DNA from: Alphaproteobacteria bacterium
GTDB taxonomy: Bacteria; Pseudomonadota; Alphaproteobacteria; Rs-D84
Length of the DNA stretch: 35,793 nucleotides
Direction: 5' to 3'
Assembly (NCBI GenBank): GCA_017650505.1
Contig: JAGCET010000030.1
Location: 1-35,793 of the forward strand
A program made the translations under genes and the position numbers. The notes under the pieces were generated by a model. That model saw nothing but the letters and a program-made list of their open reading frames with translations, was not told where the DNA came from and made no database searches. Positions 1,730 to 24,541 of this stretch are shown one piece after another (position 1 is the stretch's first letter; each line of letters starts with the position of its first letter).

Positions 1730-1755
1730 CCCCCCGTATAACAAAAGGAGATATT

Positions 1756-2994: not shown

Positions 2995-3000
2995 ATGGTT

Positions 3001-3042: not shown

Positions 3043-3043
3043 T

Positions 3044-3071
3044 AAATGCGGGGTAAAAACCCCGCATTTTT
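3044..3071. terminator. Rho-independent terminator, probably bidirectional
   Basis: A perfect 10-bp stem, AAATGCGGGG (3044-3053) with CCCCGCATTT (3060-3069), has a 6-nt loop and a plus-strand T run. It ends the DUF1015 transcript and may also serve the minus-strand gene that stops at 3104. Confidence 0.85.
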
Positions 3072-3103
3072 ATAAGATTTTTATATATCAACAATTATCA
3101 CAC

Positions 3104-3694: not shown

Positions 3695-3806
3695 TACTTT
3701 CCTCCTCTCTGGTTCCGCATATGCAAACCAATTCAACCTTGCCAAAATGTTAGCAAAATTTTACAAACCGACGCAAGAACAAATTTCAATTTGTATAAAA
3801 TAAAAT

Positions 3807-8719: not shown

Positions 8720-9592
8720 ATGAAGTCTTTAACCGCAATCTTAGTCGCGACATTTTGTCTTGCGCCCGTGTTTTGTGCGAACGCGGCGGTCCAAAAGTGT
8801 TCAAAAACTAACCTGACGCGGTGTATGGATTCTGCATGTGCAATAAACGGCGGAATAAATCCGTCCGCCCGTTGTCAATATTGCGGCACATCAAACGCCG
8901 GCACCCCACCCGCACAAAAAGGCCTAAGCAATATTACCGCCGGTCAATCCACCAAATACGCAATATCGTCCAAAGATTTGGCCAAGGCCCCGTCCGACCC
9001 ATCAAAGCGATATAATTGGGCGGCAAACGAATGTGTAAAAAAATTACCGGATTGTACAACCGACGATGTGGCGGATGCGTACGACAAACTGATTGAACAA
9101 TCGTGCAAAGCCGCGGGTGTAACGATGCAAATTGCAAAACTTTCAACCGATGTAAACAAAAAACAGACAAAATCCAAATGCGAACCGATATTCACAACCT
9201 GCATGAATAAAAAGTGTGGCACAACGTTTGATTCCTGCGCGAACGATGCGGATCTGGACCGGTCTATTGCCGAATGTGCGGCCGATGCAAATGGTTGCGA
9301 TGATTATATCTCGGATTTTCGTAAAACATTCTCCGATGCGCGCGACCGCGCGATTGGAAATCGTGAAAACGTATTGAATGCTATTGCGGAAAAATACCAA
9401 AGTGCGCGCAAGGCGAAAACCGACGGCACATTGGAAAAATGTCGAAAAGGTACCGCATCAGAAACATGCATAAAAACGGTATGTGCAAACAATATGCGTG
9501 GCAAATGTGATGGCGCAGATGCCGCGGATGAACGGTCAATGGCAACCCAGTTATGTAAATTCTATGATACGGCATGCACGGTGTTAAAGTAA
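8720..9592 (+). CDS. Secreted cysteine-repeat protein (Cx6C family), 290 aa
   Basis: An exported protein of unknown function, and the smallest plus-strand member of the local cysteine-repeat family. The signal peptide is residues 1-22 (MKSLTAILVA...ANA). The core motif is C154-x6-C161-x4-C166-G-x5-C173 (CMNKKCGTTFDSC), followed by C186-x6-C193 (CAADANGC) and a helical segment of about 50 residues. Further Cys pairs lie at 105/112 and 250/255. The motif and the downstream ANGC pair recur at nearly the same numbering in the next gene, showing homology. AGAGGG sits right against the ATG, which is unusually close. It is the first gene of a tightly coupled operon: its stop is 1 nt from the next ATG. 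Disulfide bonding in the periplasm or outside is inference. Confidence 0.8.
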   Translation: MKSLTAILVATFCLAPVFCANAAVQKCSKTNLTRCMDSACAINGGINPSARCQYCGTSNAGTPPAQKGLSNITAGQSTKYAISSKDLAKAPSDPSKRYNWAANECVKKLPDCTTDDVADAYDKLIEQSCKAAGVTMQIAKLSTDVNKKQTKSKCEPIFTTCMNKKCGTTFDSCANDADLDRSIAECAADANGCDDYISDFRKTFSDARDRAIGNRENVLNAIAEKYQSARKAKTDGTLEKCRKGTASETCIKTVCANNMRGKCDGADAADERSMATQLCKFYDTACTVLK

Positions 9593-9593
9593 A

Positions 9594-11921
9594 ATGAAAC
9601 GAACGATCGGAATCTTTTATGTTTTGTTTATGACCATGGTCTGTGTGGCGGGTGCCAATGCCGCCCCGCGCACAGAAATGTTTGACGCGGCGTTAAGTGA
9701 AGTATCGGGGCCGCAAACAGACACTTCGACGGACGAACGTGCCGAACGCATACGTCGTCAACGCGCATTATTGGATGCCGCCGGGAATCAAACAAATTCG
9801 GCCGAAACCGGTGGTGCAAACACCGCATCTTCAAACGCATGCGACACTGCATTGCGCAAATGTATGTCGGAAAAATGCGGAGCCGATTTTACAAAATGCG
9901 CCACCGACAGCACCACAATTTGGAACGATAAAACAGAATCTTGCCGTCGCAAAACAAAATGCACCGGCCACGAATACGCGATTTTGGCGCCGGAAATATT
10001 GGCAGATCGCGACGCAAACGTCCGACTGTCATACTATAATTCGGTCATCAGTTGCGGAAATAAATATAACAATTGCATCTTTACCGAATGCGGAACAACG
10101 TTGGATAAATGCCTGGCCAAATCCGCCGGGGACAAGGCTGTATCGAAATGCGCATCCATCGCCAATGGTTGCAAAGAGCAAGATAGCGGACTTGCCGCGC
10201 GTGCGATGAGTGTATTTGGCGATTTACGTAAATTGGCAACGGCACGTGTTCAAAAAGATGAAAAAAGATTATACGAACTGCGCGATTTAATGCGGGACCA
10301 ATGCAACCGTTTGGGTGCAATATTTGACGAACGGACTTTGGATTGCGTGTACACGGTGAATTTCTTTGCGGGCGATGATGCCAAGACACCAAAAGCATCG
10401 AAAAAATTGTACGCCGGCGACAGTTTCCAATGCAACGCAAACTGGTTCGGCATTGACGTCACGACATTCAAAGAAAATGCATACCGTCTGACCCGTTCAC
10501 AAAAATCTGCATCAACGGCAATGTTGGGTGCCGGCATTGGTACGGCGGCGGGTTTGTTAACATCCGGCGCAATTGACCGCGCGTTAAACACACAAAAGGC
10601 CGAAAAAGCCGCCAAAGAAGAATGCAAATCTGACGCAACCAAGAAATGGAAAGGCGGCGAATGTGTCGATAAAACCGCAGAGGAAATAGAAAGAGATAAC
10701 AACCAAGGAAGAAACAATCGCCGTGGCGGCAATGACAACCATAACTGTGGCACCAAGGTATGGGACCCAGAAACAGAACAATGTGTCGATAAAAATGACG
10801 AAGTTGGTGATTTTGTACGACCAGATGCCAAAGGGACGAAACCCACAGAAACGGAGTTAAACGAAGAAAATGGCGAACAACGCTGTCGCGAATATTACAC
10901 AGACGAATATTGTGATGAATATTATGGTATAAATACTGCAAAATCAGTATCACCCACAAGTTCTTCAACTGGAGCGACAGAAAAGAAAGATGATATAGAC
11001 CCAAACACCAAAGATCCAGAAAAAGAATCATCAGTAGTGGATATTAACATAACACCATTAACCAGTGCCAACACCCCAATACAAGGCAGCCTAAGTTGCA
11101 AGTATAAAAACAAAGACACAAAAACAACTAAACAGGGCAATCTGTTGTTAAAAAAGATTCCTGGAAATACAGAATGCACCATTACTTCCAAAGTTCCAAC
11201 ATGCAGTCCTTTAAAGAAAACCGCAAAAGAACTTTCAAGCATGCAATCTGTCACAATGCAGTGTCAGAATGTCGACGACTGTCTTGCAAAATCTAATAAA
11301 TGGGAAAACAATCAATGTATAGGAAACAATGACTTTATACCTCTTTTTAAACTGCAAGTTGGTGCAACCGACAGCGAAATCCCCGCATCTCAACTGGCAA
11401 GGCATGAACTGGCCATCAAATGCGACAGTAATACAGGCACAGCAGAAATAAATAATTTCAATGTTATAAGCATAGCAAAAATGTTGCCAGGAACAAAATG
11501 CACTATTAGCGCCAAAAAGTGTAAGCCACAGACACATACCGTATCCGACCTGAAAAAAACAGCAGACAACAATCAAGAAGTAAAACTTGAATGCCCCGAA
11601 CTCACCGATTGTATGAAATTGGCTGCGTCTGTGGGGGGAGAATATAAAGGTTTCTGTATAGATGAAAACATAACAATTACTTGGGCAGAAGCATCAAAAA
11701 AATTCTTGGACAATTCAGGCGAACCGTTAATCATAGAAAATATTACATGTGGTCAACAAGTACTTAGCGCAACAAACAAAACTATTACCGCACGGTATAA
11801 CACAATGTGCAAAGTGTCTTTTGATGGGCTCAAGGTAGACTATGAATTATCTAAAATGAAAATGAATAGTTCGGTCAATATAGATACGTCAAATACATCA
11901 AAAAAAAAAATGAAAATATAG
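9594..11921 (+). CDS. Large secreted cysteine-repeat protein, N-terminal 775 aa before a frameshift
   Basis: Function unknown. The signal peptide is residues 1-24. Two copies of the family motif follow with identical spacing: C83-x6-C90-x4-C95-x6-C102 and C154-x6-C161-x4-C166-x6-C173, then C186/C193 as in the gene before. An FQCNANWFG motif (278-286) leads to a glycine-zipper segment (about 306-331), an arrangement also seen in the 13838 protein. From about 480 onward come two tandem ~100-residue beta-like domains (about 483-577 and 582-690), each with paired Cys and a closing DC...C unit, then part of a third. That half is more A/T-rich and Lys/Thr-rich than the front. There is no ribosome site, so translational coupling to 8720-9592 is likely. 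The frame ends at an A11 run; the real product probably continues to 12565. Confidence 0.8.
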   Translation: MKRTIGIFYVLFMTMVCVAGANAAPRTEMFDAALSEVSGPQTDTSTDERAERIRRQRALLDAAGNQTNSAETGGANTASSNACDTALRKCMSEKCGADFTKCATDSTTIWNDKTESCRRKTKCTGHEYAILAPEILADRDANVRLSYYNSVISCGNKYNNCIFTECGTTLDKCLAKSAGDKAVSKCASIANGCKEQDSGLAARAMSVFGDLRKLATARVQKDEKRLYELRDLMRDQCNRLGAIFDERTLDCVYTVNFFAGDDAKTPKASKKLYAGDSFQCNANWFGIDVTTFKENAYRLTRSQKSASTAMLGAGIGTAAGLLTSGAIDRALNTQKAEKAAKEECKSDATKKWKGGECVDKTAEEIERDNNQGRNNRRGGNDNHNCGTKVWDPETEQCVDKNDEVGDFVRPDAKGTKPTETELNEENGEQRCREYYTDEYCDEYYGINTAKSVSPTSSSTGATEKKDDIDPNTKDPEKESSVVDINITPLTSANTPIQGSLSCKYKNKDTKTTKQGNLLLKKIPGNTECTITSKVPTCSPLKKTAKELSSMQSVTMQCQNVDDCLAKSNKWENNQCIGNNDFIPLFKLQVGATDSEIPASQLARHELAIKCDSNTGTAEINNFNVISIAKMLPGTKCTISAKKCKPQTHTVSDLKKTADNNQEVKLECPELTDCMKLAASVGGEYKGFCIDENITITWAEASKKFLDNSGEPLIIENITCGQQVLSATNKTITARYNTMCKVSFDGLKVDYELSKMKMNSSVNIDTSNTSKKKMKI
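11900..11910 (+). other. A11 homopolymer: likely frameshift or slippage site
   Basis: Eleven consecutive A residues end an open frame of 768 codons, which stops 11 bases later (TAG 11919-11921). The adjacent -1 frame is open from before the run to 12565, with typical coding content. Reading through needs one net -1 shift. Programmed slippage, an indel in the organism and an assembly error are all possible. Confidence 0.8.
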
Positions 11922-12565
11922 TCGGTACGAATACAACAACAACGACTACTTATTCGACCGCATCTAAATCCAGTTCAGGTAAATGTAATTTAAATTTTGA
12001 ATCTTTGGCAAAAAACATTGTTATAAATCAACCAATCAGTTTGGCAAATTGTGATCAAAATACCGCGGAATTTATAAAAGGTAAAAAAGTACTGTACGAC
12101 ACCTGCCGACTTAACAATTCGACACCTGTACTTCTGAAAGATGGCGTAACCGTTGGCGAATACGAGGTTGATCCGTTTATAGAAAACAACAATTTTATAT
12201 GTAAAAAAAGAAGCGGAACAAAACAAAATGAAACAGGATGGCATACGTTTAAAGATGTAAACGATAAGGTCTACCCCGTTGATAAATGGAAACCGGAAAC
12301 CAATCCACAAAGCTGCGATAATATATGCAACAAAATCGAAAAATATACTGAAATTGTAGATCAAAACAAAAATGAAATTGAAGGTCGACCATTTCCTGGC
12401 GCTAAAGAAGACAGACAGTGTATTGCCGCATGTGCACAAAAAGCCGAAGAAGCCTGCAAAGGTTTGATTGATTCGCCATGGGGTAATCGCACAATCACAA
12501 GTACCACGGCAATATACAGGATGGATAAAAACAATGTCCTAAGGTACGGTTGCAAATACCAATAA
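11909..12565 (+). CDS. C-terminal part of the large cysteine-repeat protein, in the -1 frame
   Basis: This is the continuation of the gene at 9594, about 218 codons in the -1 frame. It starts with a low-complexity Thr/Ser linker (NENIVGTNTTTTTTYSTASK), goes on with Cys-bearing domain sequence, and ends in a Cys-rich helical patch (CDNICNK; CIAACAQKAEEAC) typical of the family. An internal ATG exists at 12005 (MAKNIV), but coding sequence extends about 95 bases upstream of it and there is no ribosome site, so an independent gene is unlikely. It ends 6 bp from the stop of the convergent minus-strand gene. Whether the two parts make one polypeptide of about 990 aa depends on the A11 run. Confidence 0.7.
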   Translation, partial: NENIVGTNTTTTTTYSTASKSSSGKCNLNFESLAKNIVINQPISLANCDQNTAEFIKGKKVLYDTCRLNNSTPVLLKDGVTVGEYEVDPFIENNNFICKKRSGTKQNETGWHTFKDVNDKVYPVDKWKPETNPQSCDNICNKIEKYTEIVDQNKNEIEGRPFPGAKEDRQCIAACAQKAEEACKGLIDSPWGNRTITSTTAIYRMDKNNVLRYGCKYQ

Positions 12566-12571
12566 TTTGCA

Positions 12572-13690
12572 CTAATCGTTGCCACTAACCGCTTTCACTA
12601 AATCATCGCGCGATTGGACAACCGCGATTCCTTTGGCACGCCACTTTGGTGCCAATTTTTCAAAATCCATTATATTACATTCGGCCAAAAACAGAACCGG
12701 CTTTTTATCTGTGTCTTTGCACGCATCCAACAACGCAACAATTGGCGAAGGCTTTTGTTTGCCCGACGCGAACCAATCAAGTTCGTCCGCAACCCAAAAA
12801 TCCGCATCATCGTGCAACGCAATTACTGCGGCATCTGAAACAACCAAATCACCATCTGCCTTTGCATTTAATCCAGAACCTTTTACAAGTTCGCATATTT
12901 GTTCCATTGTGTTAGTTGTTGGCCGGGATTTTTCATTATTGTCGGCCGGCTCAGAATCTTCCGCATCATCGTCGCCGTCATCACCAAAATTTATTTCTGA
13001 AAACACCGGAACATCGGAAAATTGCGGTTCTGAATTTGTTGCCGGTACATCAAAATCTTCGGGGATTGGGAACAAAGTGTCCGACGCATCTGTACCCGTA
13101 TTGACATCGGATGCCACGGCATTTGGTGCAATCGCCGACGCAACCGTATTATCCGTTCGCGTGTCCATAATCGGCACAAAATCATTGGTTGGCGCATTTG
13201 ACGCGACCACCGGGGCCGGCGAAACATTTTCGCCACCACTCATTGGCATTCTGTTAAAAACCGATCTTTGCCGCACACCATAATTTCTGTGTGCCCGCAA
13301 AAAACTTTCGCGCATTTCCGGCGGAACGGCGTGCGATAATTCCGGCAACGATTCTTGTTCCACAACCAATGGTTTTGGGGCAACTTCTGTTTTTTTTGCC
13401 GGCAGGGTAAAACAATTTGGCATTGGGAGTTTGACCGGTGTTTCGCCCTTGCGCACGGTTAAAACAGTTGTTGCAATATAAAGTGGCACCGCCGCCAAAA
13501 TCAAAATTCCAAAAACAAAACCCGCAAAACCATGTAATTCCACATGCGCAAGGCGCACCAAATCTGCCCACGAAAACAGATTAAAATTAAACAATCCGCG
13601 CAGAACCGCCCACACCACAAACACATAGGCCACCGTCCACCAAAATGGACGCCCAAATTTAGTAAAAAATTCTTTCGCATTTGTTGCCAT
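12572..13690 (-). CDS. Two-helix membrane protein with acidic linker and C-terminal domain, unknown function
   Basis: A 372-aa protein I cannot assign. The ATG at 13690 is chosen; an in-frame TTG two codons earlier is less likely. Two transmembrane helices (about 14-34 and 54-76) lie at the N-terminus and form a probable inner-membrane hairpin. A Pro/Ala/Asn-rich linker follows with an acidic stretch (FGDDGDDDAEDSEPAD, about 233-248). The C-terminal 110 residues look like a compact cytoplasmic alpha/beta domain (LVVSDAAVIALHDDADFWVADELDW; KPVLFLAECNIMDFEKL). There is no Shine-Dalgarno. A perfect TTGACA-16-TATAAT promoter puts the transcription start about 2 nt from the ATG, so the mRNA is probably leaderless. 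It sits inside the cysteine-repeat cluster on the opposite strand. A link to that system is possible but unproven. Confidence 0.75.
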   Translation of the reverse strand: MATNAKEFFTKFGRPFWWTVAYVFVVWAVLRGLFNFNLFSWADLVRLAHVELHGFAGFVFGILILAAVPLYIATTVLTVRKGETPVKLPMPNCFTLPAKKTEVAPKPLVVEQESLPELSHAVPPEMRESFLRAHRNYGVRQRSVFNRMPMSGGENVSPAPVVASNAPTNDFVPIMDTRTDNTVASAIAPNAVASDVNTGTDASDTLFPIPEDFDVPATNSEPQFSDVPVFSEINFGDDGDDDAEDSEPADNNEKSRPTTNTMEQICELVKGSGLNAKADGDLVVSDAAVIALHDDADFWVADELDWFASGKQKPSPIVALLDACKDTDKKPVLFLAECNIMDFEKLAPKWRAKGIAVVQSRDDLVKAVSGND

Positions 13691-13698
13691 CGACAATT

Positions 13699-13726
13699 AT
13701 TATAGACATTTTTTACAATCTGTCAA
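13699..13726 (-). promoter_or_regulatory. Consensus promoter giving a leaderless transcript
   Basis: TTGACA (13726-13721), a 16-bp spacer ending TGTC and TATAAT (13704-13699) lie only 8 bp from the ATG at 13690. Initiation at the usual distance falls almost on the start codon. Confidence 0.8.
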
Positions 13727-13801
13727 TATATTTATATAATTATCTATATGGAAAAATTTTATAAAAAAGTATAAAAAAAACTTTTTTATATGCCTTTTGT
13801 G

Positions 13802-13810
13802 TGGTATAAT
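13802..13810 (+). promoter_or_regulatory. Extended -10 promoter for the 13838 gene
   Basis: TGTGG runs into a perfect TATAAT (13805-13810). The -35 region is only a T run (about 13781-13787), which is also the right arm of an A/T-only inverted repeat (13761-13770 with 13780-13789). The extended -10 probably compensates. Confidence 0.6.
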
Positions 13811-13837
13811 GCAGGGTATAAACAGAGGGAGTATTTT

Positions 13838-16123
13838 ATGCAAAAATTGCTGTATAGTTTAACGAATGGCGCGGTTTGCCTGGCGTTAGTATTGGTTTCT
13901 GGGGCTTCTTTTGGTGATGCGCGCACCGCCCCTGCAACGCGTGGTCGCGGCACAGTGGCAACGGCACGTATGCCATCTATTCCGGTTTTGCCGGTCAGTG
14001 CCACGGGTAATATGACCGTCCCCAGCAGCGAGATAAATCCGACACCAACCCCCAATCCGAATCCTAACCCTAACCCGAACCCCAATCCAAATCCGAATCC
14101 AAATCCAAATCCGGACCCAGAGCCCGATACTCCGGTTGATCCTGGATGCCCGGATGGCGGTGTTGCGAATTCTTCATATACGGTTGAAAACTGTATGAAT
14201 GATGTTTTAGGATGCGTTAATGGTGGCGCATTACCGAATGGTATAAATTCTCTGTTCAACGAAGATTTGCGTAATTCGATTGTAAACGGTATGGGGCTTT
14301 GTTTGACCCAGGTTGAACATTGTGTGTCTACTGTGCGTCGTAATTGCCAAAATGTTTATGCATCTACATCCGACGTGTGGCTTGATTTCAACGCACGTAA
14401 GGTGCAACCGGAATATTACCGTTTTGTGTTGGCCCAAACAGGCCTGACCCCGACCCAGGCAGAAAATACTTGTCTGTTGTTGGATCGCAATACGTACGGT
14501 GCGGCGTTCAATGCGGTGTCTACATCGAACAACGTGACATCTGAATATGCGCAACAGGTCGGTGCGTACAACAGCCAAATGAATAATTCATTATCCAAGG
14601 CGAACCCATTGGGGCCCCAGGTTAATCGGACCGGTATCGATGGCAATCGTGGGTACTATGCACGTTGGGATGCTGAAAATGCCCAATGTCTGTTGCGTGT
14701 CGCGGCATACAACAAAGACACACCAATTAAAAACAGTTGGTTATTTGGCGCAATCGGTGATGAAAGCCTCGCCGAAGTATGGCAGGCCACCGGTTCAACA
14801 TTCACATGCAACAAAGATTTGTTTGGATTCTCGCTTATGAACGACACCAAAACAGCCGCGGTTGTTGGTATTGGTGGCGGAACCTTGCTTGGGGCGGGAA
14901 TTGGTGCCGCAGTGGGCCATGGCGATCGTAAATTCGATTGCAGCAACGCATCTATGCGCGACAACCTGTTGAAAAAGATTCAAGACGGCCAAAAGGTTGG
15001 TTATTTAAACAAATACCTTGATACTCAAATGACAAGTACGGACAAAACAATGTCGATTGGTCTATGCAACGAAATTATCGAACTTTATGACCTGTGGCAA
15101 ATGGGTAAAGGCGCGGTAAATGATTGCGAAAGCAAGACGAATATTCTTGTCGAACTTAAGGCCGATTTTAGCATTGAAAAATTGCAACAACAATGCGACA
15201 ACCTGTGTATGACCGAAGAACAGTTTAACAAACTTATTGCGGCCATGCAGGCACCACTGAAAGAATTCTTGGAACAACAATCTGCAAGGGTAAAAGACGC
15301 GATGGAATATTGCACCTTTGTTGAATTGAACAAGGCACGTCGTGATGGTACCGGTGTGTACTGCAAAGGAACCGGAAACAACTGTATACCAAAGGCCGAA
15401 TTTGAGGCCGAACTTGCCGAACTTGGACGCATATTCAATTCACTGGATATATTGGAAGGCGAAAAATCCAATCGTTTGAAAACAACGCTGGCGGGCGCGG
15501 GTATTGGCGCGGCGGCGGGCGGTACCGCAACGGCAATTACCGCATTTGTTGAACGCAACAATATTAACTGTCGCGTGGCGGACGGATTGGCCAAGGTCGC
15601 ATTTGGAAAATCGTACACAATCGATCGTCTGCGTGACTTCTATGTCAAATGGGCATTGAATTTACCGGCAACATTGGCACCAACTGCGGTTGTCACGAAT
15701 TGTGATAATTGGCAATTGACATGCGCATTGTTCACGGATTTGGATGAATGTCGTGCGGCCCAATTCAATTATCGCCCGGGCAATTTGTCCAGTACGACGT
15801 TGATTCAAAATGCCTGTACACCATCGGGCAGTGCATGTATCGCGAACCTTGGGGTGGCGCAATCGAATGGCGAATGCCTTATGACGCCGGTTGTACCCGA
15901 CACGCCAATACCATCAGTTTCCGATTGCAGCGAATGGATTGACGCGTGCAAACCGATAACCAACGCAAACGAGTGTAATTCGGCCAAGGTTATATACACG
16001 CCACGGTCTATGCAGGTTTCAAATGCGTGCAAATATCAAACGGCAATAAACGAATGTCGTCCAAGTTTGCAAAAGGCGCGGCAGTATCTGGACGTGAATA
16101 CATGTCCGATACGACTTGAATAG
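13838..16123 (+). CDS. Secreted cysteine-repeat protein with Asn-Pro linker and two glycine zippers, 761 aa
   Basis: Function unknown. The ATG at 13838 has GAGGGAG upstream and begins a signal peptide (MQKLLYSLTN...GASFG). A basic Ala/Arg region, then (Asn-Pro)10 (residues 73-92), form a rigid linker. Cx6C pairs follow (C119/C126, C155/C162). F322-T-C-N-K-D-L-F-G leads to glycine zipper 1 (about 338-362), as in the 9594 protein. Glycine zipper 2 lies at about 549-569. The C-terminus has two tandem copies of C-x2-W-x3-C-x8-C (C622/C629/C638 and C697/C704/C713) with similar following residues. The transcript has its own promoter and ends at a strong terminator. The zippers suggest membrane insertion or oligomerisation; that is inference. 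Confidence 0.8.
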   Translation: MQKLLYSLTNGAVCLALVLVSGASFGDARTAPATRGRGTVATARMPSIPVLPVSATGNMTVPSSEINPTPTPNPNPNPNPNPNPNPNPNPNPDPEPDTPVDPGCPDGGVANSSYTVENCMNDVLGCVNGGALPNGINSLFNEDLRNSIVNGMGLCLTQVEHCVSTVRRNCQNVYASTSDVWLDFNARKVQPEYYRFVLAQTGLTPTQAENTCLLLDRNTYGAAFNAVSTSNNVTSEYAQQVGAYNSQMNNSLSKANPLGPQVNRTGIDGNRGYYARWDAENAQCLLRVAAYNKDTPIKNSWLFGAIGDESLAEVWQATGSTFTCNKDLFGFSLMNDTKTAAVVGIGGGTLLGAGIGAAVGHGDRKFDCSNASMRDNLLKKIQDGQKVGYLNKYLDTQMTSTDKTMSIGLCNEIIELYDLWQMGKGAVNDCESKTNILVELKADFSIEKLQQQCDNLCMTEEQFNKLIAAMQAPLKEFLEQQSARVKDAMEYCTFVELNKARRDGTGVYCKGTGNNCIPKAEFEAELAELGRIFNSLDILEGEKSNRLKTTLAGAGIGAAAGGTATAITAFVERNNINCRVADGLAKVAFGKSYTIDRLRDFYVKWALNLPATLAPTAVVTNCDNWQLTCALFTDLDECRAAQFNYRPGNLSSTTLIQNACTPSGSACIANLGVAQSNGECLMTPVVPDTPIPSVSDCSEWIDACKPITNANECNSAKVIYTPRSMQVSNACKYQTAINECRPSLQKARQYLDVNTCPIRLE
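14054..14113 (+). repeat. Hexanucleotide repeat encoding (Asn-Pro)10
   Basis: Ten tandem AAY-CCN codon pairs, varying mainly at third positions. The variation shows selection on the peptide rather than recent slippage. It joins the signal-peptide-proximal region to the Cys-rich body of the protein. Confidence 0.9.
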
Positions 16124-16150
16124 GAAAGTTTTTTCATTGTGTATCCTCCT

Positions 16151-16178
16151 CTGCCCGGTTTCCCACGGGCAGTTTTTT
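16151..16178 (+). terminator. Rho-independent terminator after the 13838 gene
   Basis: CTGCCCG (16151-16157) pairs with CGGGCAG (16166-16172) across an 8-nt loop, followed by six T residues. Confidence 0.9.
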
Positions 16179-16202
16179 ATTGCGCATTTGCATTTTTATT
16201 TC

Positions 16203-16231
16203 TTGTTCGTGGTGGCAAATTGTGATAAAAT
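16203..16231 (+). promoter_or_regulatory. Putative promoter for the 16257 gene
   Basis: TTGTTC (16203-16208), a 17-bp spacer ending TGA (extended -10) and TAAAAT (16226-16231). It lies between the preceding terminator and the GGGAGAG ribosome site. Confidence 0.5.
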
Positions 16232-16256
16232 AAAAAAGATAATAGGGAGAGTTTCA

Positions 16257-19250
16257 TTGAAAAATTTACTTTTAATTTTGGCATTTTTAATTGGCGGATT
16301 CGATGCATACGGCGCAACTGCACGCGGTATCACACGTAGCAATAATACGAATACAGGTAATACTAACAGCAGTAAATCTACTGGTGGAACACTTGGTGGT
16401 TCAACCACCGCAGTACGCGCGGCACGCAGTGCAACGCCAGTTGTTACGCGCAGTGGAACAAACGCAGTGCAGGCACCAACTGCGGCCAATACTGCCCCCA
16501 GTGTCGTTACTCGACGTGGAGTATTGGCACCGCAAGGGACATCAGACACCAAAAAACAAACTGCGGCGCGTGCGGCAAAACAAAGCGTAATCAGCACCGG
16601 GACCAAGGTTGCGGCCGCGAATCAAAACACTGTGGTTGATGAAGAATGTTGGAATAAATTCAGTGGTTGTATGGATTCTTTCTGTATGCTGGACAACGCG
16701 AATGGCGGCCGTTGCATTTGCAGTGATAAAAACGCCGAATACGATTCGATTTTGGCCGAAATTCAAAGTTTGGACGAACAATCTTATCAAATGGCGACGG
16801 TTGGTGTTGAACGAATCGAAATGGGCGACGATGCCGACGCAGTTATGGCCAAAACCAAAGAAATCACAGGCAGCATAGAAAAAGAATCTGCATCGTCAAA
16901 ATCAAAACGTAAGTCTTTGGATTTGTCGGCATGGAACATGGTTGATTTTGATTCCGACGCCGATGTCGAAGATATGTTTTCTTTGGCGTCCGACGGAACA
17001 TCTGTCGCGAACAAAACCGGCGACGCGCTGTATCGTGCATCGGCGAAATTGTGCAATGCACAAATCACCGAATGCAAATCTCAATCAAAGATGATGGAAT
17101 TGATGTATCAACAACGTGTGCGTTCTGATTGCACCGCGTATGAAAACAGCCTGCGCCAACAACGCACGCAAAGCGCACAAAAATTGGCCGCCGCCCAAAG
17201 TGCCATGCGCGAAGCCGCATTGGAACAGTATCGCAGTGCGAATAAATACGACCTTGGGCAATGCACAATCGAATTCAAAAAATGTATGCAAACAACCGGT
17301 GGATGCGGCGAAGATTTTACCGGTTGCGTAACACAACAAACCACACGCGACACATTATTGTCATCGAACAAAGATGCAAATGGCAAATCAAAAACCAAGG
17401 CCCCAAAACAAACAAAAATCAAGGGTGCAACCACAACCATAGAAATTGCGGCATGGACGTACGATGCATTGGAATCAAAAAAGCCGCTGTGTATGACCGT
17501 AACAAAACAGTGCGTAAATGTTCGCGACCAAGTATGGGATACATTCTTGCGTGAAGTCGCGCCCCAGGTAAAATCGGCCGAATTGATGGCGGAATCGAAC
17601 CTGCGCACATCGTGTGTTTCAACGGTTTCAGACTGTTTCCAAAAGGCATGTAAAGAAAATATGGACCCGAACGACCCCGATGGTTCATACGATATGTGTT
17701 TGACACGCCCCGAAACACTGCGCAATTTATGCAAAGTGCAAATCGATCCGTGTGATGCGGCGGTTCCAAATTTATGGGATTATGTAAAGGCACGTCTTGC
17801 ATCTATGCGTGTTGATTCGTGCACCAAAGAGTTCAAACAATGCCTTACATCCGAAGACCGTTGTGGCAAAGATTATACGCAATGCGTAGGTTTAGACACA
17901 GACACAATCGTACGTTTATGCCCGCCCGAAAAACTGATCGGATGCCAGTATAAAGAGGGCGATGTTGATAGAACCGGTGAAAAGGATGTATTAAATCAAC
18001 TGTCACAAATCGCCCAGGGTATTTTCCTTAACATAGACAACAATTTATTGGCATCGTGCCAAAAAGCCGTGCAATCGAAAGTTATTGAAGTCTGTGGCAG
18101 TCTGTCCGAATGCGACGCATTTACTGATGACGAAATTATCGGCACAGATTCTTTGTTAAGTTATAAAACCAACAATGGCAACACGGTTATCGAAGGACTG
18201 GTAAACTTTGGTCTATTACAGATGAAAGACGACTATACAGATATTGACATAGATGCGTACAAAGTAATTCGAACAGATGGTTCGTCAAGATCCAATGAAA
18301 TTTTGTCCCAGTTGACAGACCAAGATGCAACAGAACAACGTGTATATGCCAACATAAACACCGTTGCCAATAAAGCGAAACAAAAACTGGCAACTATCGC
18401 CCAAGATCCAACCATTAAAATGTGTGTCGAAGGGCGCAGCGGAGATTGGCGTTATTCACGTACAAAAAGTGCAACTCAAACCCAAGATAAATCGCAAGAC
18501 GATAAAGCGCGTTTCCCGCACCTGTTAGATTCTTATAACCTAATGGTATTTAATTCTGCATTAGATCAAGCATATTTAAATTATCGTAAACGTTTGGACA
18601 CATTGGTTGCAAAAGCAGTAGAAGATCAAAATGATGATGTTAAATCTATGCTCTGTGCGGCAATTGCGAATGATCAAGATGCGGCTATATGCAAACACTA
18701 TGACGCGGTCCCAGAAACCGGAGAACCAATTTGTACAGAATACGGCACCGAAGGCGCATTGGGAAATATATTTACAGGGGACGATGAAATGGGATTAAAC
18801 GATAACGGTTTAGCGATTGTTATCAAGGGTGCAGACATCACCAAAAAACTTGATGCAATAACAAAAAGTAAAAGTGAATTTATCCAAACAGATAACGAAG
18901 GTAATATGATAGGTTCAATAACGATAACTTCCGCGTACAGCTCCGAAACCAACACTTGTAACGTAACAAGCGTTTCGACATTGTGCAAAAATTTGGATAA
19001 AATTATAACCACAGTAGAAGCAAAAAAATTAAAAGGAGATGCAGGTATAACTCTTGCCGACGGAACAAACCTTTCTACGGAAAACACTGTAATTTATGAC
19101 GATTATAAAAAAACTAATCGAAAAGAAAAATACGATGGCGGCAGGGCCGTACAAGGTAAAATCAAGAAACTTAAGGCGGAAGTTTATCACGGAACATATT
19201 GCACAGAATTCCAAGAACCAACTACCAAGACAGATACTATCAAAATGTAA
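16257..19250 (+). CDS. Giant secreted cysteine-repeat protein, 997 aa, TTG start
   Basis: Function unknown; the largest complete family member. TTG at 16257 is chosen because GGGAGAG lies 5 nt upstream and the product then begins with a proper signal peptide (MKNLLLILAFLIGGFDAYGA). The frame is open further upstream, but that reading crosses the terminator and promoter. After a Ser/Thr/Arg-rich low-complexity region (about 20-125) come at least seven Cx6C units: C131/C138 (+C143), C266/C273, C336/C343/C350/C357, C412/C419, C453/C460 (+C465), C492/C499 and C522/C529/C536/C543. Helical charged stretches separate them. The two four-Cys units have x6 in the middle instead of x4. The last 400 residues are less Cys-rich and more A/T-rich in codon use. 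A GC-rich hairpin follows the stop. Array length suggests an extended disulfide-stabilised rod, which is inference. Confidence 0.8.
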   Translation: MKNLLLILAFLIGGFDAYGATARGITRSNNTNTGNTNSSKSTGGTLGGSTTAVRAARSATPVVTRSGTNAVQAPTAANTAPSVVTRRGVLAPQGTSDTKKQTAARAAKQSVISTGTKVAAANQNTVVDEECWNKFSGCMDSFCMLDNANGGRCICSDKNAEYDSILAEIQSLDEQSYQMATVGVERIEMGDDADAVMAKTKEITGSIEKESASSKSKRKSLDLSAWNMVDFDSDADVEDMFSLASDGTSVANKTGDALYRASAKLCNAQITECKSQSKMMELMYQQRVRSDCTAYENSLRQQRTQSAQKLAAAQSAMREAALEQYRSANKYDLGQCTIEFKKCMQTTGGCGEDFTGCVTQQTTRDTLLSSNKDANGKSKTKAPKQTKIKGATTTIEIAAWTYDALESKKPLCMTVTKQCVNVRDQVWDTFLREVAPQVKSAELMAESNLRTSCVSTVSDCFQKACKENMDPNDPDGSYDMCLTRPETLRNLCKVQIDPCDAAVPNLWDYVKARLASMRVDSCTKEFKQCLTSEDRCGKDYTQCVGLDTDTIVRLCPPEKLIGCQYKEGDVDRTGEKDVLNQLSQIAQGIFLNIDNNLLASCQKAVQSKVIEVCGSLSECDAFTDDEIIGTDSLLSYKTNNGNTVIEGLVNFGLLQMKDDYTDIDIDAYKVIRTDGSSRSNEILSQLTDQDATEQRVYANINTVANKAKQKLATIAQDPTIKMCVEGRSGDWRYSRTKSATQTQDKSQDDKARFPHLLDSYNLMVFNSALDQAYLNYRKRLDTLVAKAVEDQNDDVKSMLCAAIANDQDAAICKHYDAVPETGEPICTEYGTEGALGNIFTGDDEMGLNDNGLAIVIKGADITKKLDAITKSKSEFIQTDNEGNMIGSITITSAYSSETNTCNVTSVSTLCKNLDKIITTVEAKKLKGDAGITLADGTNLSTENTVIYDDYKKTNRKEKYDGGRAVQGKIKKLKAEVYHGTYCTEFQEPTTKTDTIKM

Positions 19251-19276
19251 AATTGCCCGCATCCGCGGGCAATTTT
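19251..19276 (+). terminator. Terminator after the 16257 gene
   Basis: AATTGCCCGC (19251-19260) pairs perfectly with GCGGGCAATT (19265-19274) across a 4-nt loop, with a short T run. It begins right at the stop codon. Confidence 0.8.
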
Positions 19277-19300
19277 CACAATCCCATTATTTGGATTGTT

Positions 19301-19333
19301 CCAAAACACATAAACCCCGCCATAAAGGCGGGG
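19301..19333 (-). terminator. Terminator of rpoA-rplQ
   Basis: On the minus strand CCCCGCC-TTTAT-GGCGGGG (19333-19315) is followed by a T-rich tail (TTTATGTGTTTT). Confidence 0.7.
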
Positions 19334-19406
19334 ACACTAACACTAACCACTAACACCCGTCGCGGCATTACCGCGCCGCGGTCGTGACGGACACTTACAC
19401 TAATAG
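19334..19406 (-). repeat. 3'-flank element related to the 42-bp repeat, after rplQ
   Basis: Directly after the rplQ stop the minus strand reads TTAGTGTAAGTG, then a GC-rich imperfect inverted repeat (CCGTC...GACGG type), then three TTAGTG copies, then the terminator. The order matches copies A and B, although the central GC-rich core differs in sequence. Confidence 0.55.
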
Positions 19407-19982
19407 TTATTTCCCGGTGGCACGACGTTTTACCGCAACGGTCTTTTTCGCCGCTGTGGCTTTTTTTGCCGCCGGTTCTTTTACCGCGGATTTCTTGGCC
19501 GCCGGCTTTTCGGCCTTTGGCGCACGTGTTGTTTTTTTCGGTGTGGCTTCGGTTGCAACTTCTTCCTTGGCCGCGGCCGCCGCAACATCGGCCTTGGGTG
19601 CCGATTTCTTGGCATTCACATCACGATCAACAAATTCGATAATCGCCATCGGTGCCGCATCACCATAACGGAATCCGGCCTTTAACACACGTGTATATCC
19701 GCCCGGACGTTTGGCATAGCGCGGGCCCAACACAGTGAACAATTTTTTCACCGCGGCATCCCCCGCATTGCCCAATTCAGACGCAACCAAACGACGGTTG
19801 GCAACGGTATCTACCTTGGCACGAGTGACCAATTTTTCCACGACACCGCGCAGATCTTTGGCCTTTGGCAACGTAGTTTTGATTTGTTCTTTTTCAATCA
19901 GGTTTTTCGCCAGGCCAATAAACAAAGCCTTGCGTGCATTTGTGTCGCGATTAAAAGTGCGACCTGCTTTTTGGTGTCTCAT
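19407..19982 (-). CDS. rplQ: 50S ribosomal protein L17, with Lys/Ala-rich C-terminal extension
   Basis: L17 of the large subunit, near the peptide exit tunnel. The family start [20 protein letters not shown] and the [27 protein letters not shown] end of the core are unmistakable. The core takes about 122 residues, as usual. About 70 more residues form a low-complexity tail of Ala, Lys, Pro and Thr (AAKK/PAAKK repeats) of the kind some alphaproteobacterial ribosomal proteins carry. AAAGGAG lies upstream. It follows rpoA, as in most bacteria, but with a 150-bp gap. That gap contains no clear promoter or terminator, only a short CTTGC/GCAAG inverted repeat. Confidence 0.97.
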
Positions 19983-20133
19983 ATCGGTACTCCTTTATTT
20001 TGTTTCCGCCCTGCCCTTTTTACGGGTGGGATTTCACCAAATTTTCGTGTCCTAAGATTTTTATACCCCAGCAACACGCATTTTTTCTACAATCTCCTTG
20101 CATATGCGCAAGAAAACTTGCCGACAAACTTCC

Positions 20134-21162
20134 TTACTTGTAAGGATCCTCGTATTTCTTTGCCAATTCCGCAATATTTTCTGGCGGCCAACCCGGAACC
20201 TCCATCCCAAGGCCCAACCCCATCGCTTCCAGTTGGATTTTGATTTCATTCAACGATTTGCGACCAAAGTTCGGGGTCTTTAACATATCGGCTTCGGTCT
20301 TTTGGACCAATTCACCAAGCCAGTTAATTTTGTCGTTCTTCAAACAATTATTTGCACGAACAGACAATTCCAATTCATCAACGCGCTTCAACAATTTCGG
20401 ATCAAATTGCAACGCATCTTTGGCCGCTTCTTCTTCGGCCGGCGCGTTGATTTGCGTTGGATCTTCAAAGTTGATGAACAATGTCAATTGGTCCGTCAGA
20501 ATACGCGCGGCAAACGCAATCGCATCTTCGGGTGTAACACTGCCGTTTGTTTTCACGGTCAATTCCAATTTATCATAGTCTGTCGATTGGCCAAAACGTG
20601 TTTCCGAAACATTACTTGCCACATTCAAAATCGGCGAGAATATAGAATCAACCGGAATCACACCCAACGGCAACCCATCGGCATGCGCCGTCGCCGGAAC
20701 ATAGCCGCGTCCCGTACCCAACGTGATTTCCATATCAAATTCTGCACCTTTATCCAAAGTGCAAATTTCTGCATCCGGATTCATAACCTCTATCGCGGAC
20801 GGACATTCAATCATAGATGCCTTGACCACCGCCGGGCCAGACACATGCAACGTCGCCTTGTGTACACCGTCGGCATTGGCCTTGAAATAAACACCTTTCA
20901 GATTCAGCAATATATCCGCAACGTCTTCATGGACGCCCTGGATACTGGAAAATTCGTGTTGAACGCCATCGATTTTAACATACAGTGGCGCACATCCCTG
21001 AAGCGAAGACAACAGCACACGACGCAACGCCGTTCCCAACGTCAAACCGAAACCCTTTTCCAACGGTTCGGCAACCAACGTGGCCATATTTGGATTGTGT
21101 TCGTCTGGGACAATATTCAGTTTTTTTGGCTTTATTAAAGTCATCCAATTTTTTTCAATCAT
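20134..21162 (-). CDS. rpoA: DNA-directed RNA polymerase subunit alpha
   Basis: The alpha subunit dimer starts RNA polymerase assembly and contacts UP elements and activators. The 342-aa length is typical. The N-terminal domain shows [19 protein letters not shown] and the [21 protein letters not shown] dimer/beta-contact region. After a linker (about 235-255), the C-terminal domain shows [15 protein letters not shown] and [20 protein letters not shown] helices (here [17 protein letters not shown]). Normally rpoA directly follows rpsM-rpsK-(rpsD). Here it is about 9.5 kb away from rpsK and has its own TTGACT-17-TAGAAT promoter 72 bp upstream. AAGGA serves as ribosome site. Confidence 0.98.
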
Positions 21163-21233
21163 TTTAATTTCCTTTTAGGCTTAGTTTATCATTTTCGCCA
21201 ATCGGCCGCGCATATTTTCGTACGCGCCCGCAG

Positions 21234-21262
21234 ATTCTATAGCATTTTTTTCTGAAAGTCAA
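21234..21262 (-). promoter_or_regulatory. Promoter for rpoA-rplQ
   Basis: TTGACT (21262-21257), a 17-bp spacer containing an A7 run and TAGAAT (21239-21234). Box sequences match those before rpsM (31554-31527). Confidence 0.65.
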
Positions 21263-21315
21263 GCACGAGTGCAAATCGTCTTCCCTCCGCAGGAGGGGAA
21301 CTATCTAGTCTGGAA

Positions 21316-21340
21316 TAAAAAACGGATGCGAACACATCCG
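21316..21340 (-). terminator. Terminator after the 24044-21350 operon
   Basis: On the minus strand CGGATG-TGTTCG-CATCCG (21340-21323) is followed by TTTTTTATTCC, 9 bases after the stop at 21350. Confidence 0.85.
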
Positions 21341-21349
21341 AAAAACATA

Positions 21350-22093
21350 TTACTGGTACCGGCCCCAGCCGCCAGAACGATTTTCACGGTCAAATTTCGA
21401 TTTGGCGTTTCTGACCTTTAATTGCAAATTTTTGACACACGATTGTATTGTTGTCCGATTCATATTTCTTACGTCATAGTCGCTACAATCAGCTGTGTCG
21501 TCTTTACACGTACCCGCCTTGGAACTGCCGCACATCTCGTACCCGTCCATAACTGCGAAATCATCTTCCAACTGCTTTCGTGCGTTGGTAATATCTTTTT
21601 CTGCGGCTTGGGAAATCTTGGTCAGGTTACGCGCAACACAATCATAGGCATTTTCCTGGCTGACCTGGTAACAATCTTCGGCGGTGGCCAGGCCATCATT
21701 AGACGCCGCTCCCGATTTGCCCCCCCCAGAATTAGAAGCGGACGTATTCCCGGTCAAGATTTCCATCTTGCTAGTTAATACCGCCTTTTCCAATTGAGTT
21801 TTGAAACGCTTTACCATCGCATTCAAAGTATCGTATTGCTGTTTTATCTGACGTGCAATAATCGTTGTTTTCATACCAATAACTTCGTTCATAGTGTTAA
21901 TCTCGTCCGCAAGTTCTGGATTCGCCGGTGCATTTTCGTACACAGCACCAATATTATGCGAATGCACAGTACACAATGCATAGGCCGGATTAAAATGTGA
22001 GCAATACTCATACTCGGCATGCACCATGACCGGCGCAAAAACCATCGCCATAAAAAATAACACATTAAAGATTTTCATTCGCTTCAACACCAT
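21350..22093 (-). CDS. Secreted helical Cys-containing protein, 247 aa, unknown function
   Basis: The start at 22093 is chosen because AGG lies at the upstream gene's stop codon and gives 4-nt operonic spacing; an ATG at 22078 is the alternative. A signal peptide ends near VMVHA. The mature protein has a Cys pair (YEYCSHFNPAYALC), then a long probable coiled coil (about residues 70-110, IARQIKQQYDTLNAMVKRFKTQ), a Gly/Ser/Asn linker, a helix with Cys (DCYQVSQENAYDC) and a Cys-rich end (CGSSKAGTC, DCSDYD) before a basic tail. A coiled-coil secreted protein with this layout loosely recalls VirB5/TrbJ-like minor pilins, but no motif supports that. It is paired with and probably translationally coupled to the 648-aa protein. 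Confidence 0.75.
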   Translation of the reverse strand: MVLKRMKIFNVLFFMAMVFAPVMVHAEYEYCSHFNPAYALCTVHSHNIGAVYENAPANPELADEINTMNEVIGMKTTIIARQIKQQYDTLNAMVKRFKTQLEKAVLTSKMEILTGNTSASNSGGGKSGAASNDGLATAEDCYQVSQENAYDCVARNLTKISQAAEKDITNARKQLEDDFAVMDGYEMCGSSKAGTCKDDTADCSDYDVRNMNRTTIQSCVKNLQLKVRNAKSKFDRENRSGGWGRYQ

Positions 22094-22097
22094 AATA

Positions 22098-24044
22098 TTA
22101 CCTATTACACGCACGCAGAGCCTCATAAAGAGGTAACCCTTCTTCTTTAGTCTTTTGATTCAAGCACGTCGTCATATCTTTCCCATATTCACTAAAATCA
22201 GACTTTGCCGATTTAGCCTCATTCTTTTTTTCATAATTTGAAAGCCAATCCGCCTCGGTCGGTGGCCCAATAAAATTCGAAGCTTCAACACAATTACCAT
22301 TAGAATCCAACCTATAACCAGAACTACAAACTTTTTTACTTGTCGAAACACATTTATAATTTACCCACTCGCACTTACCTGCGCCCTTTGCTTCACAACG
22401 ATCGCTAGCGGTATATTGAGAACACCAATCCCCAGGGGTTATATAAGTAAATGGCAAATTATTTAAACTGGAAGTCTTGTTATCATAACATAAATTCTTA
22501 CTATCCAACTTTCTACTTCTGAATGCGGCCTCTAATGCTTTTCTTTCATTTGAATCAGTCGCAACCATGCATGCATTCATTCCGCAATTTTCTCTGATTT
22601 CCTTTTCTGTCATATTCTTGGTATCCTTTGCACTGCATGTTGTCGATGAATCTTGGGCAACCAAATCGCGCAACATTTCCACGTCGGCGTCGGCATTTTT
22701 ACGACGACCACGGAAAATTCCAACCGAGCCAATAAAGTCCGACGCACATGCAACCTGGACCGAACCGGTCATTCCGGTATTTGCGTCAATCCATTCACGT
22801 TGCACATCGGCCTTGTCATCCAATATCCCCATTAAACGACAATGCGGTTGATTCTTGGCAACTTTACCAGTATCTTTTTCAAACGCAACACGCCAATAGC
22901 AATTTTTTTTACCTTTGGCAGTTTCGTTACATTCACACACACTTACACCACCACCAGCATCAGTTTCTTGTCTATCCTTATCGCACGTGCCGCACATATA
23001 CTTGCCCCACATATTGCAAGAATCAGACAACAACATTATAACGTCGCTTACATCTATACCGACGGTCATGGCCAACATTAACGCTTCGTACATATCGTCA
23101 ACGACCGCTTCGTACGGGTCAAAGAATTCATTCGCCAAATCTTTGAATTTTTTTACGCGCTTTGGGCCGGTACAGTTATTTGCGGCACTGTCGCATCCGC
23201 CATATTCCAACAATCGGTCCAAAACTTCTTTTAACTTTTTCATTTCGACCGTCGCATTATCTATGGCCGTTTCAATCTTTCCGGCGACCTGTTCGCGCAC
23301 CAACAAATCCGGACTGACGCCATTTTTTATTGCCAACTGTTCCGCCACCGTCAAACCCTCTAACGCGGCCGGATCTATTTCATTTCCACCCCCCGTGGCC
23401 GAATCGGACGCGACCGCCGTCGAATAAGAATTCCGTTGTTCTTCCAATGCATTTTGAATCTGCACAGATTGCGATTCGCTTTGCGCCGCCATTTGCGCCT
23501 GCATATTGGCCATAGATTCCGCCATCTGTTGCTGCATCTCGGCCATTTGCTGTTGCATCTGTTGCATTTGGGCATTCGATTGTTCAGCGGCGGCCGATGC
23601 CGCAGCGGCCTGGGCCTGGGCTTGTGCCTGGGCAATAGCGACGGCATTTTGCTGTTCTTGCTGTTTCGCGTTGGATTGCGCCACAATTTGCGCCGTTATG
23701 TAATCTATCAGTTCATCGCCATGCTTCTTACACGAAGAATTGGAATTCACACACCCCGCAACAATCGGCCGCGCCACAGACATATCATAACATGCGCCAT
23801 TCGTACACTTTGGCGTGGCACACCGCAACACAACCGCATTACAATTTCCGAAATTCGCCGTCGCCGCGGTTTCACTCATACCGCCGCGCGCGTTCATCAT
23901 GGTATTCCATTTGTTGTTGTTGGTTGCACCCGTACCATTATAAGCGGTCAGATTAGAACCAGCCGTCGTTGCAACATTGGCCCCCCCCGGCGAAACAAAC
24001 GCCGCGCAAACCAAACCGAACAAGAAATAATGATAAACCCTCAT
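22098..24044 (-). CDS. Large secreted Cys-rich protein with Gln/Ala coiled coil, 648 aa
   Basis: Function unknown. The ATG at 24044 follows an extended -10 element by only 15 bp, with AGAGAG right against the start; an in-frame TTG at 24059 would lie on the transcription start itself. The signal peptide ends near residue 22. A family-type motif follows: C68-x6-C75-x4-C80-x4-C85. Residues about 115-205 are a Gln/Ala/Met-rich coiled coil (repeats of QAQAQAAAA and MQQQMAEMQQQM types). The rest has many Cys pairs, e.g. CNMWGKYMCGTC, CECNETAKGKKNC, DWCSQYTASDRC, KCEWVNYKC and CSSGYRLDSNGNC. The last resembles EGF-like or stalk-type small disulfide modules. It is the first gene of a two-gene operon with 21350-22093. 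Motif kinship with the plus-strand cluster is good; a shared machine is inference. Confidence 0.78.
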   Translation of the reverse strand: MRVYHYFLFGLVCAAFVSPGGANVATTAGSNLTAYNGTGATNNNKWNTMMNARGGMSETAATANFGNCNAVVLRCATPKCTNGACYDMSVARPIVAGCVNSNSSCKKHGDELIDYITAQIVAQSNAKQQEQQNAVAIAQAQAQAQAAAASAAAEQSNAQMQQMQQQMAEMQQQMAESMANMQAQMAAQSESQSVQIQNALEEQRNSYSTAVASDSATGGGNEIDPAALEGLTVAEQLAIKNGVSPDLLVREQVAGKIETAIDNATVEMKKLKEVLDRLLEYGGCDSAANNCTGPKRVKKFKDLANEFFDPYEAVVDDMYEALMLAMTVGIDVSDVIMLLSDSCNMWGKYMCGTCDKDRQETDAGGGVSVCECNETAKGKKNCYWRVAFEKDTGKVAKNQPHCRLMGILDDKADVQREWIDANTGMTGSVQVACASDFIGSVGIFRGRRKNADADVEMLRDLVAQDSSTTCSAKDTKNMTEKEIRENCGMNACMVATDSNERKALEAAFRSRKLDSKNLCYDNKTSSLNNLPFTYITPGDWCSQYTASDRCEAKGAGKCEWVNYKCVSTSKKVCSSGYRLDSNGNCVEASNFIGPPTEADWLSNYEKKNEAKSAKSDFSEYGKDMTTCLNQKTKEEGLPLYEALRACNR

Positions 24045-24211: not shown

Positions 24212-24541
24212 TTAGTAATCACAACGATTGCAAGTGTTGTTACGAACCACACGACGTTCGGCATATGTACCCGCCGGTTCATAAACCGTCACAGGACGAT
24301 ACACTTGGTAATGGTCAATAACTTCAGTATGTGTTTTAACACGAACCGGTTGCGCACAAGAATTGCAAGTATATGCAACCGCACGACGTGGCTGTTCAAC
24401 CGGCGCATACATAACAACATTCGTATTATAACGAACACTGTTTGTGTATGTTTCTGTCTCGGTATACAAACCACCGTCAGACGCATTCGCCGCAACGCAA
24501 ACCATTCCGGCAAACAATGATGTTAAAATTGTTTTTTTCAT
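24212..24541 (-). CDS. Small secreted protein with two CxxC pairs, 109 aa
   Basis: I do not recognise the family. It has a clear signal peptide (MKKTILTSLFAGMVCVAANA, residues 1-20). The mature part is about 89 residues rich in Tyr, Val, Thr and Arg, probably all beta (ETETYTNSVRYNTNVVMYAP; DHYQVYRPVTVYEPAGTY). CNSC near the middle (59-62) and CNRC at the end (104-107) could form disulfides or bind a metal. AAAAGGG lies upstream of the ATG, and a perfect TTGACA-16-TATAAT promoter implies strong expression. The transcript ends with the 42-bp element and a terminator, so it is monocistronic. Confidence 0.8.
   Translation of the reverse strand: MKKTILTSLFAGMVCVAANASDGGLYTETETYTNSVRYNTNVVMYAPVEQPRRAVAYTCNSCAQPVRVKTHTEVIDHYQVYRPVTVYEPAGTYAERRVVRNNTCNRCDY

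Follow-up and report, generated by a model that had tools for sequence, protein, structure and literature searches.

A six-cysteine module shared by three predicted exported proteins of Rs-D84 Alphaproteobacteria

Background

The outer membrane complex of Chlamydia is made of very cysteine-rich exported proteins in a partner-dependent bacterium with a reduced genome, and Pfam includes families for the Chlamydia cysteine-rich outer membrane proteins. Alpha-hairpinins and saposins are small helical folds held by disulfides, with cysteine spacings other than those of the modules described here. The twin CX9C/CX3C (CHCH) proteins of the mitochondrial intermembrane space are described as a disulfide-stapled helix pair, and NDUFB10 has a CX6C/CX11C motif (PMC12114033).

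The window analysed here comprises positions 1 to 35,793 of contig JAGCET010000030.1 (assembly GCA_017650505.1), from an uncultured member of the Alphaproteobacteria. It includes a ribosomal-protein neighbourhood (rpsE, rplO, secY, rpoA, and rplQ, named by reading). Its rpoA shares 93-95% identity with the rpoA genes of MAGs of rumen Alphaproteobacteria (L004-L006, L008-L010), and Candidatus Enterousia is found among its relatives (L030, L047, L061). These relatives are Candidatus Enterousia-like Alphaproteobacteria with genomes of about 1 Mb. Candidatus Enterousia is placed in the GTDB order Rs-D84, an uncultured order of animal guts whose genomes are near 1 Mb, lack respiratory chains, and probably belong to partner-dependent cells (PMC12306168). 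"Hypothetical membrane-bound proteins" have been reported from the order (PMC12306168). Given its relatives, the window probably lies in this order too.

A conserved locus beside rpoA-rplQ

A sequence-only reading had described six neighbouring genes, here A to F, as an expanded family of secreted proteins taking up about 11 kb of the window; the measured total is about 11.2 kb. The genes and two neighbours are:

4237..7917, minus strand: ankyrin/subtilase-like protein, divergent to A-B (Pfam Ank_4, Peptidase_S8)
8720..9592, plus strand: gene A, 290 aa with 22 Cys, predicted exported, leading the A-B pair
9594..11921, plus strand: gene B, 775 aa, Cys-rich conserved head and tail of variable length
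12572..13690, minus strand: conserved gene with a hydrophobic N-terminal part, divergent to C (from locus adjacency)
13838..16123, plus strand: gene C, 761 aa, Cys-rich, with an Asn-Pro repeat spacer and two glycine-zipper-like segments
16257..19250, plus strand: gene D, 997 aa with 36 Cys, at the core of the expanded family
21350..22093, minus strand: gene E, 247 aa, a non-member operonic with F, without the six-Cys unit
22098..24044, minus strand: gene F, 648 aa, with the six-Cys spacing close to its N-terminus

Among 78 loci fetched around D, many of which end at contig ends, tblastn found D in 78, C in 59, B in 41, A in 37, E in 8, and F in 7. D lies within 5 kb of rplQ in 68/68 loci holding both. 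In loci that likewise hold both members of a pair, A adjoins B on the same strand in 37/37, C sits beside the 12572 gene in 58/58 (on opposite strands in 57), and E adjoins F in 7/7. The gene at 4237 is found in 18 of the 19 loci with at least 2.5 kb upstream of A, and in 24 of 25 loci it faces A at a distance of no more than 2.5 kb. D, C, B, and A with these two neighbours form a conserved locus beside rpoA-rplQ.

The 4237..7917 protein has, by reading, an autotransporter-like C-terminal end, and its subtilase serine motif looks degenerate by eye. None of 20 members of the 12572..13690 family has a Pfam match. Elsewhere in the window, two exported proteins (3104-3745 and 29306-30103, both minus strand) look alike, by eye, in their N-terminal parts, and each matches one and the same end of L001. 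A small exported protein with 5 Cys in its 109 aa (24212-24541, minus strand) is present in 36 of the 78 loci; its family matches are weak and below cut-off. (In L055, at 1581-3878, F and E form one 765-aa ORF in which the variable end of F is missing, either a natural fusion or an assembly join.)

A crude hydrophobicity rule, which also flags clpP and secY, predicts a signal peptide in 35/35 relatives of A, 34/37 of B, 56/57 of C, 59/70 of D, 7/7 of F, and 6/6 of E. Profile searches returned 771 homologues of A and 716 of E; the few names shown for either are "Alphaproteobacteria bacterium" or "bacterium". For D, 7993 candidates were scored and 1012 of them are homologues at E<=1e-3; none of the 120 listed carries a Pfam domain.

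A shared six-cysteine module

The cysteine spacings that the earlier reading listed are all present in the sequences. C-x6-C-x4-C-x6-C occurs in A (C154-C173) and twice in B (C83-C102 and C154-C173); D has C-x6-C-x6-C-x6-C at C336-C357 and C522-C543, along with five other C-x6-C pairs; C has two C-x6-C-x8-C; and F has C68-x6-C75-x4-C80. The stretches that matter below are:

9179..9298, plus strand: A module I, C154-C193, C-x6-C-x4-C-x6-C-x12-C-x6-C
9440..9577, plus strand: A second six-Cys stretch, C241-C286, C-x8-C-x4-C-x7-C-x15-C-x6-C
9840..9962, plus strand: B module I, C83-C123, six-Cys pattern and profile match
10053..10172, plus strand: B module II, C154-C193, six-Cys pattern and profile match
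10509..10583, plus strand: B glycine-zipper-like segment, residues 306-330, by reading
14147..14347, plus strand: C N-terminal Cys region, C104-C170, including C-x6-C-x28-C-x6-C, invariant in the alignment
15701..15877, plus strand: C repeat 1, C622-C680, profile match to repeat 2 (score 59.9)
15926..16105, plus strand: C repeat 2, C697-C756, Cys spacing and profile match to repeat 1
17262..17513, plus strand: D module I, C336-C419, last pair set off by a long spacer
17613..17753, plus strand: D module II, C453-C499, six-Cys pattern
17820..17945, plus strand: D module III, C522-C563, profile match to B module I and A module I
23730..23843, minus strand: F six-Cys stretch, C68-C105, by spacing (6/20,000 shuffles reach the count)

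For each protein, the number of consecutive C-x6-C gaps was compared with the mean over 5000 runs in which equally many cysteines were placed at random. The gaps are in excess in A (5 against 1.0 expected, P 0.0018), B (6 against 1.25, P 0.0022), C (6 against 0.97, reached by 0/5000 placements), and D (11 against 1.0, 0/5000), and weakly so in F (4 against 0.95, P 0.012). Gene E has no significant excess (1 against 0.18, P 0.17). A search with the fuller pattern C-x6-C-x4-6-C-x4-15-C-x10-14-C-x5-7-C found one copy in A, two in B, two in D, and one in F; 28, 0, 0, and 6 of 20,000 residue shuffles, respectively, reached these counts. (A third copy in D, C336-C419, has a longer spacer ahead of its last pair and lies outside the pattern count.) The pattern was found in neither C nor E. 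The statement that five of the proteins carry the same spacing is too wide, since the full unit is confined to A, B, D, and F. Gene E, with neither feature, was rejected as a member of the cysteine family. In G001, a related genome of 1.0 Mb, the unit occurs in 5 of the 62 ORFs within regions hit by D, and in none of 289 ORFs of at least 150 aa in the 385 kb searched outside them.

Kinship was judged by profile comparison, with 316 comparisons against 34 other stretches of the same families as decoys; the best decoy scored 11.3. A module I matches B modules I and II at 37.3 and 34.0, B module I matches D modules III and I at 32.2 and 29.1, and A module I matches D module III at 21.6. In D module I the matching part is the first half, which scores 50.0 with D module III and 29.1 with B module I. 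As judged from these profiles, A, B, and D share a homologous six-cysteine module. Against the same decoy maximum, clear profile kinship is lacking for the second A stretch (best 12.1 against the other modules) and for D module II (at most 12.1 against A and B modules). The C regions reach at most 12.1 against A, B, and D modules, and the F stretch at most 8.9, with 13.5 against C repeat 2. If membership is taken as the pattern together with a profile match above decoys, A, B, and D belong, F has the pattern alone, and C and E do not belong. The single family of five seen in the sequence-only reading is not supported: kinship is demonstrable for A, B, and D alone, C has a different repeat, F shares spacing alone, and E falls outside.

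Searches of Pfam, NCBIfam, and PHROGs gave no described domain in A-F beyond low-complexity or stray weak hits, and no known domain family stood behind the units; the earlier reading had known of no such family. The profiles of A and D matched no PDB sequence up to E 0.1. A predicted (AF2) model of A is all helical, at about 90-93 pLDDT over residues 151-210, and the predicted model of D is helical from 129 to 613 with a beta end, consistent with the helical flanks proposed for the units. Both models have low pTM (0.39, 0.43), and neither gave a clear PDB fold match that would explain the modules.

Gene C carries a long Asn-Pro dipeptide repeat after its signal peptide (about residues 70-100), where low-complexity Pfam hits fall. 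In B, residues A306, G312, G314, and G316 of the glycine-zipper-like segment are invariant among relatives, and the segment is a possible membrane hairpin. Pfam Gly-zipper_YMGG hit 1 of 39 C members (E 0.0024), and none of the other 38 nor any of 33 B members.

Spread and forms of D

In the order to which G001 belongs, 51 of 59 genomes have a D match, 41 of them strong (best E below 1e-100) and 10 weak, with 8 lacking one. A class-wide draw found D in 2 of 115 genomes (G001 and G010), both also drawn from the order of G001. The 41 strongly matching genomes have 8-15 D match segments each, not all of which are separate genes. The D-type ORFs of G001 number 8 and range from 727 to 1097 aa; together they make up 7069 aa, or about 2% of the 1-Mb genome. 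"Expanded" is an apt word for this family.

A strong hydrophobic segment near the C-terminus of D is absent from 91 rows, present in 75, and intermediate in 31 (n=197). Of 72 loci with D, 11 have more than one D gene; in seven (L016, L049, L053, L056, L063, L064, and L066) a form without the segment stands beside a form with it, and in six of these the segment-less form is directly followed, on the same strand, by the segment-bearing form. We read D as one head with exchangeable ends, some of them probably anchored.

Other arrangements were noted along the way. D2 adjoins D3 in 20 genomes (L109-L128). Within 25 kb at about 320-345 kb of G001 (L079, L150) lie a D2-D3-D4 cluster, an OmpA-domain gene with, by reading, a MotB-like start, a Chlam_PMP-repeat autotransporter, and a DsbA-like gene. 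Another locus encodes an exported Cys-rich protein of 418 aa with CxxGTYT-like repeats, by eye (L083:9225-10481).

Disulfide pairing

An alignment of 276 D-type sequences, assigned by score to D (204), D2 (26), D3 (24), and D4-type (22), shows a cysteine ruler that is constant across D, D2, and D3 with one substituted exception (L028). D4-type sequences lose cysteines together: C343 and C412 are both gone in 18/18 rows aligned at both positions (three more rows retain C343 and are unaligned at C412), and C465 and C481 are both gone in 9/9 (three more rows lack C465 and are unaligned at C481). The remaining gaps fit substitution without indels, with x13 in place of x6+1+x6 and x30 in place of x4+1+x14+1+x10.

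From these two co-losses a nested plan was built, 1-6, 2-5, 3-4. L028 is the sole D, D2, or D3 row with a substituted core cysteine, and exactly C529 and C555 are lost; by our own arithmetic the predicted partners are 9 of the 435 pairs among the 30 core D cysteines. Similarly, the first and sixth cysteines of C repeat 1 (C622 and C680) are jointly missing in 3 of 39 rows (L074, L077, and L078), with C680 in L074 a gap and not a substitution. Gene A keeps 20 cysteines in all but two of 156 homologues: in L007 both C255 and C263 are absent, whereas P0185 lacks C255 and keeps C263, contrary to the pairing rule. Losses at C430, C492, C509, and C516 of C, and those in F row L035, follow no clear rule, and losses common to related rows may each be one inherited event. 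Even numbers of conserved cysteines, 20 for A and 30 for the D core, suit internal pairing; the number for B is odd (15). These patterns support nested pairing 1-6, 2-5, 3-4 in a probable helical hairpin. The disulfide-stapled hairpins suggested earlier thus gain backing from co-loss in relatives, with one A homologue, P0185, against.

Oxidation machinery

Each of eight related genomes (G001-G005, G014, G039, and G054) has one match to PF13462 (DsbA-like). The G001 copy, some 6 kb away from the D2 gene, has a CPYC motif. No DsbB or VKOR family member was found in any of these eight genomes, in searches whose controls were detected. For an anaerobe reported to be without respiratory chains, how a DsbA-like protein is re-oxidised without DsbB or VKOR is a testable question. 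All eight genomes also have one VirB4-type ATPase; the 1-Mb genome of G001 carries PilO-like and T2SSE genes as well, at 582-600 kb (L149).

Proposed role

The best explanation, to which we give a probability of roughly 0.45, is that A, B, and D form a DsbA-oxidised helical scaffold of the envelope or surface. They would be clade-specific exported proteins, mainly helical, with a six-cysteine hairpin as their building block, in which helix 1 carries C1-x6-C2, C3-C4 closes a short stretch, and helix 2 carries C5-x6-C6; the disulfides 1-6, 2-5, and 3-4 would be nested rungs, as co-loss suggests. The proteins would leave the cytoplasm by their signal peptides, be oxidised by the one DsbA-like protein that these genomes encode, and serve as stiff, braced rods and heads, either periplasmic or on the cell's outer face. 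Spacers at the N-terminus would provide reach, glycine-zipper or hydrophobic segments (in B, C, and one of the two D forms) may anchor some copies in the membrane, and variable C-terminal parts may face partner molecules. C and F would be accessory Cys-rich proteins. The homology of A, B, and D, their cysteine conservation, the locus, and the copy number are established, and helices and pairing have support; the family and its disulfide plan thus stand better than its location and function, since export, oxidation, location, anchoring, and the scaffold role are what we infer. The important envelope or extracellular structure suggested by the earlier reading would fit the conservation and the copy number. 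Counting against the explanation are P0185, the odd conserved cysteine number of B, the weak kinship of the second A stretch and D module II, the absence of DsbB and VKOR from the eight genomes, and the low pTM of both models.

The nearest rival, by reason of the variable C-termini of B and D, casts the proteins as surface adhesins or as proteins delivered to partner cells, with the conserved Cys-rich head acting as stalk or platform while the C-terminal part, which changes, does the work. B relatives range from 390 to 1161 aa in total length (n=37), and 1 of 33 carries a Pfam CarboxypepD_reg domain. The two kinds of end switch at least 31 times on the tree of D heads, against 48 to 63 times in 30 label shuffles. 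The lineage is thought to be partner-dependent (PMC12306168), and the VirB4-type ATPase is present throughout the eight genomes. However, D is near-universal, sits beside rplQ, and has a fixed cysteine ruler, unlike a fast-changing weapon, and A (282-364 aa) has no variable end. This reading is unlikely.

A coat crosslinked by intermolecular disulfides, like the Chlamydia outer membrane complex, is much less likely. Each genome encodes several very Cys-rich exported proteins, a PMP-repeat autotransporter lies beside the G001 D2-D3-D4 cluster, and the conserved cysteine number of B is odd (15, kept in 33/33 aligned relatives). Nevertheless, even numbers and co-loss indicate internal pairs in A, C, and D, and Rs-D84 genomes keep MreB, RodA, and MrdA (PMC12306168), so that a coat in place of a wall would be unneeded.

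That these proteins are components of a type IV secretion or type IVb pilus machine is less probable again: VirB4 in all eight genomes and the PilO-like and T2SSE genes of G001 would fit, but in G001, the one genome examined for this, the D-type ORFs lie outside the fetched VirB4 or PilO stretch, and the family searches gave no match to such parts. Least probable is a separate origin of the spacings in unrelated proteins, i,i+7 cysteines being the heptad step of helices; C-x6-C does equal one heptad, and F and C lack a clear profile match to A, B, or D, but this origin is already disfavoured for A, B, and D, whose modules match above every decoy; by itself, the A profile recovers 7 B and 4 D ORFs from the full set of ORFs in the fetched loci (E 1.3e-8 to 6e-5).

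The core family, at about 2% of a 1-Mb genome and with a readable disulfide plan, offers concrete targets for proteomics and structural work.

Comparison with known systems

None of A-F has a Pfam match to the Chlamydia cysteine-rich outer membrane families. The scaffold proposed here would resemble the Chlamydia complex in its very Cys-rich exported proteins and its partner-dependent host of reduced genome, but would differ in its helical modules with probable internal pairing; the peptidoglycan shape genes reported in Rs-D84 (PMC12306168) are a further difference. Glycine-zipper envelope proteins of the YmgG/17-kDa type are likened to B and C by the glycine-zipper-like segments read there, but in B and C these sit inside long Cys-rich proteins.

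In its probable way of working the module is like CHCH proteins, which have two helices each with a cysteine pair at fixed spacing, stapled by disulfides and oxidised outside a cytoplasm-like compartment (PMC12114033). The predicted helices and the pairing suggested by co-loss would fit such a hairpin. The A, B, and D modules differ in a spacing of x6 and not x9, a probable third nested disulfide, multiple modules per protein, and their setting in long exported bacterial proteins. Two C-x9-C pairs, the CHCH trait, occur in none of A-F (D, E, and F have a single C-x9-C gap each; A, B, and C have zero), and no CHCH family of Pfam matches A-F up to E 0.1. Since tests of CHCH spacing and sequence membership found neither, the family is filed under no known one, with a hairpin that would work, by analogy, like a twin-CXnC hairpin. 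It is rather unlikely, taken as a whole, that a tiny-genome, partner-dependent order assembled its envelope or contact surface out of a private, nested three-disulfide "twin CX6C" superfamily of hairpin proteins, oxidised by DsbA without DsbB or VKOR. If true, this would be a convergent periplasmic counterpart to the twin-CXnC proteins found in the intermembrane space of mitochondria.
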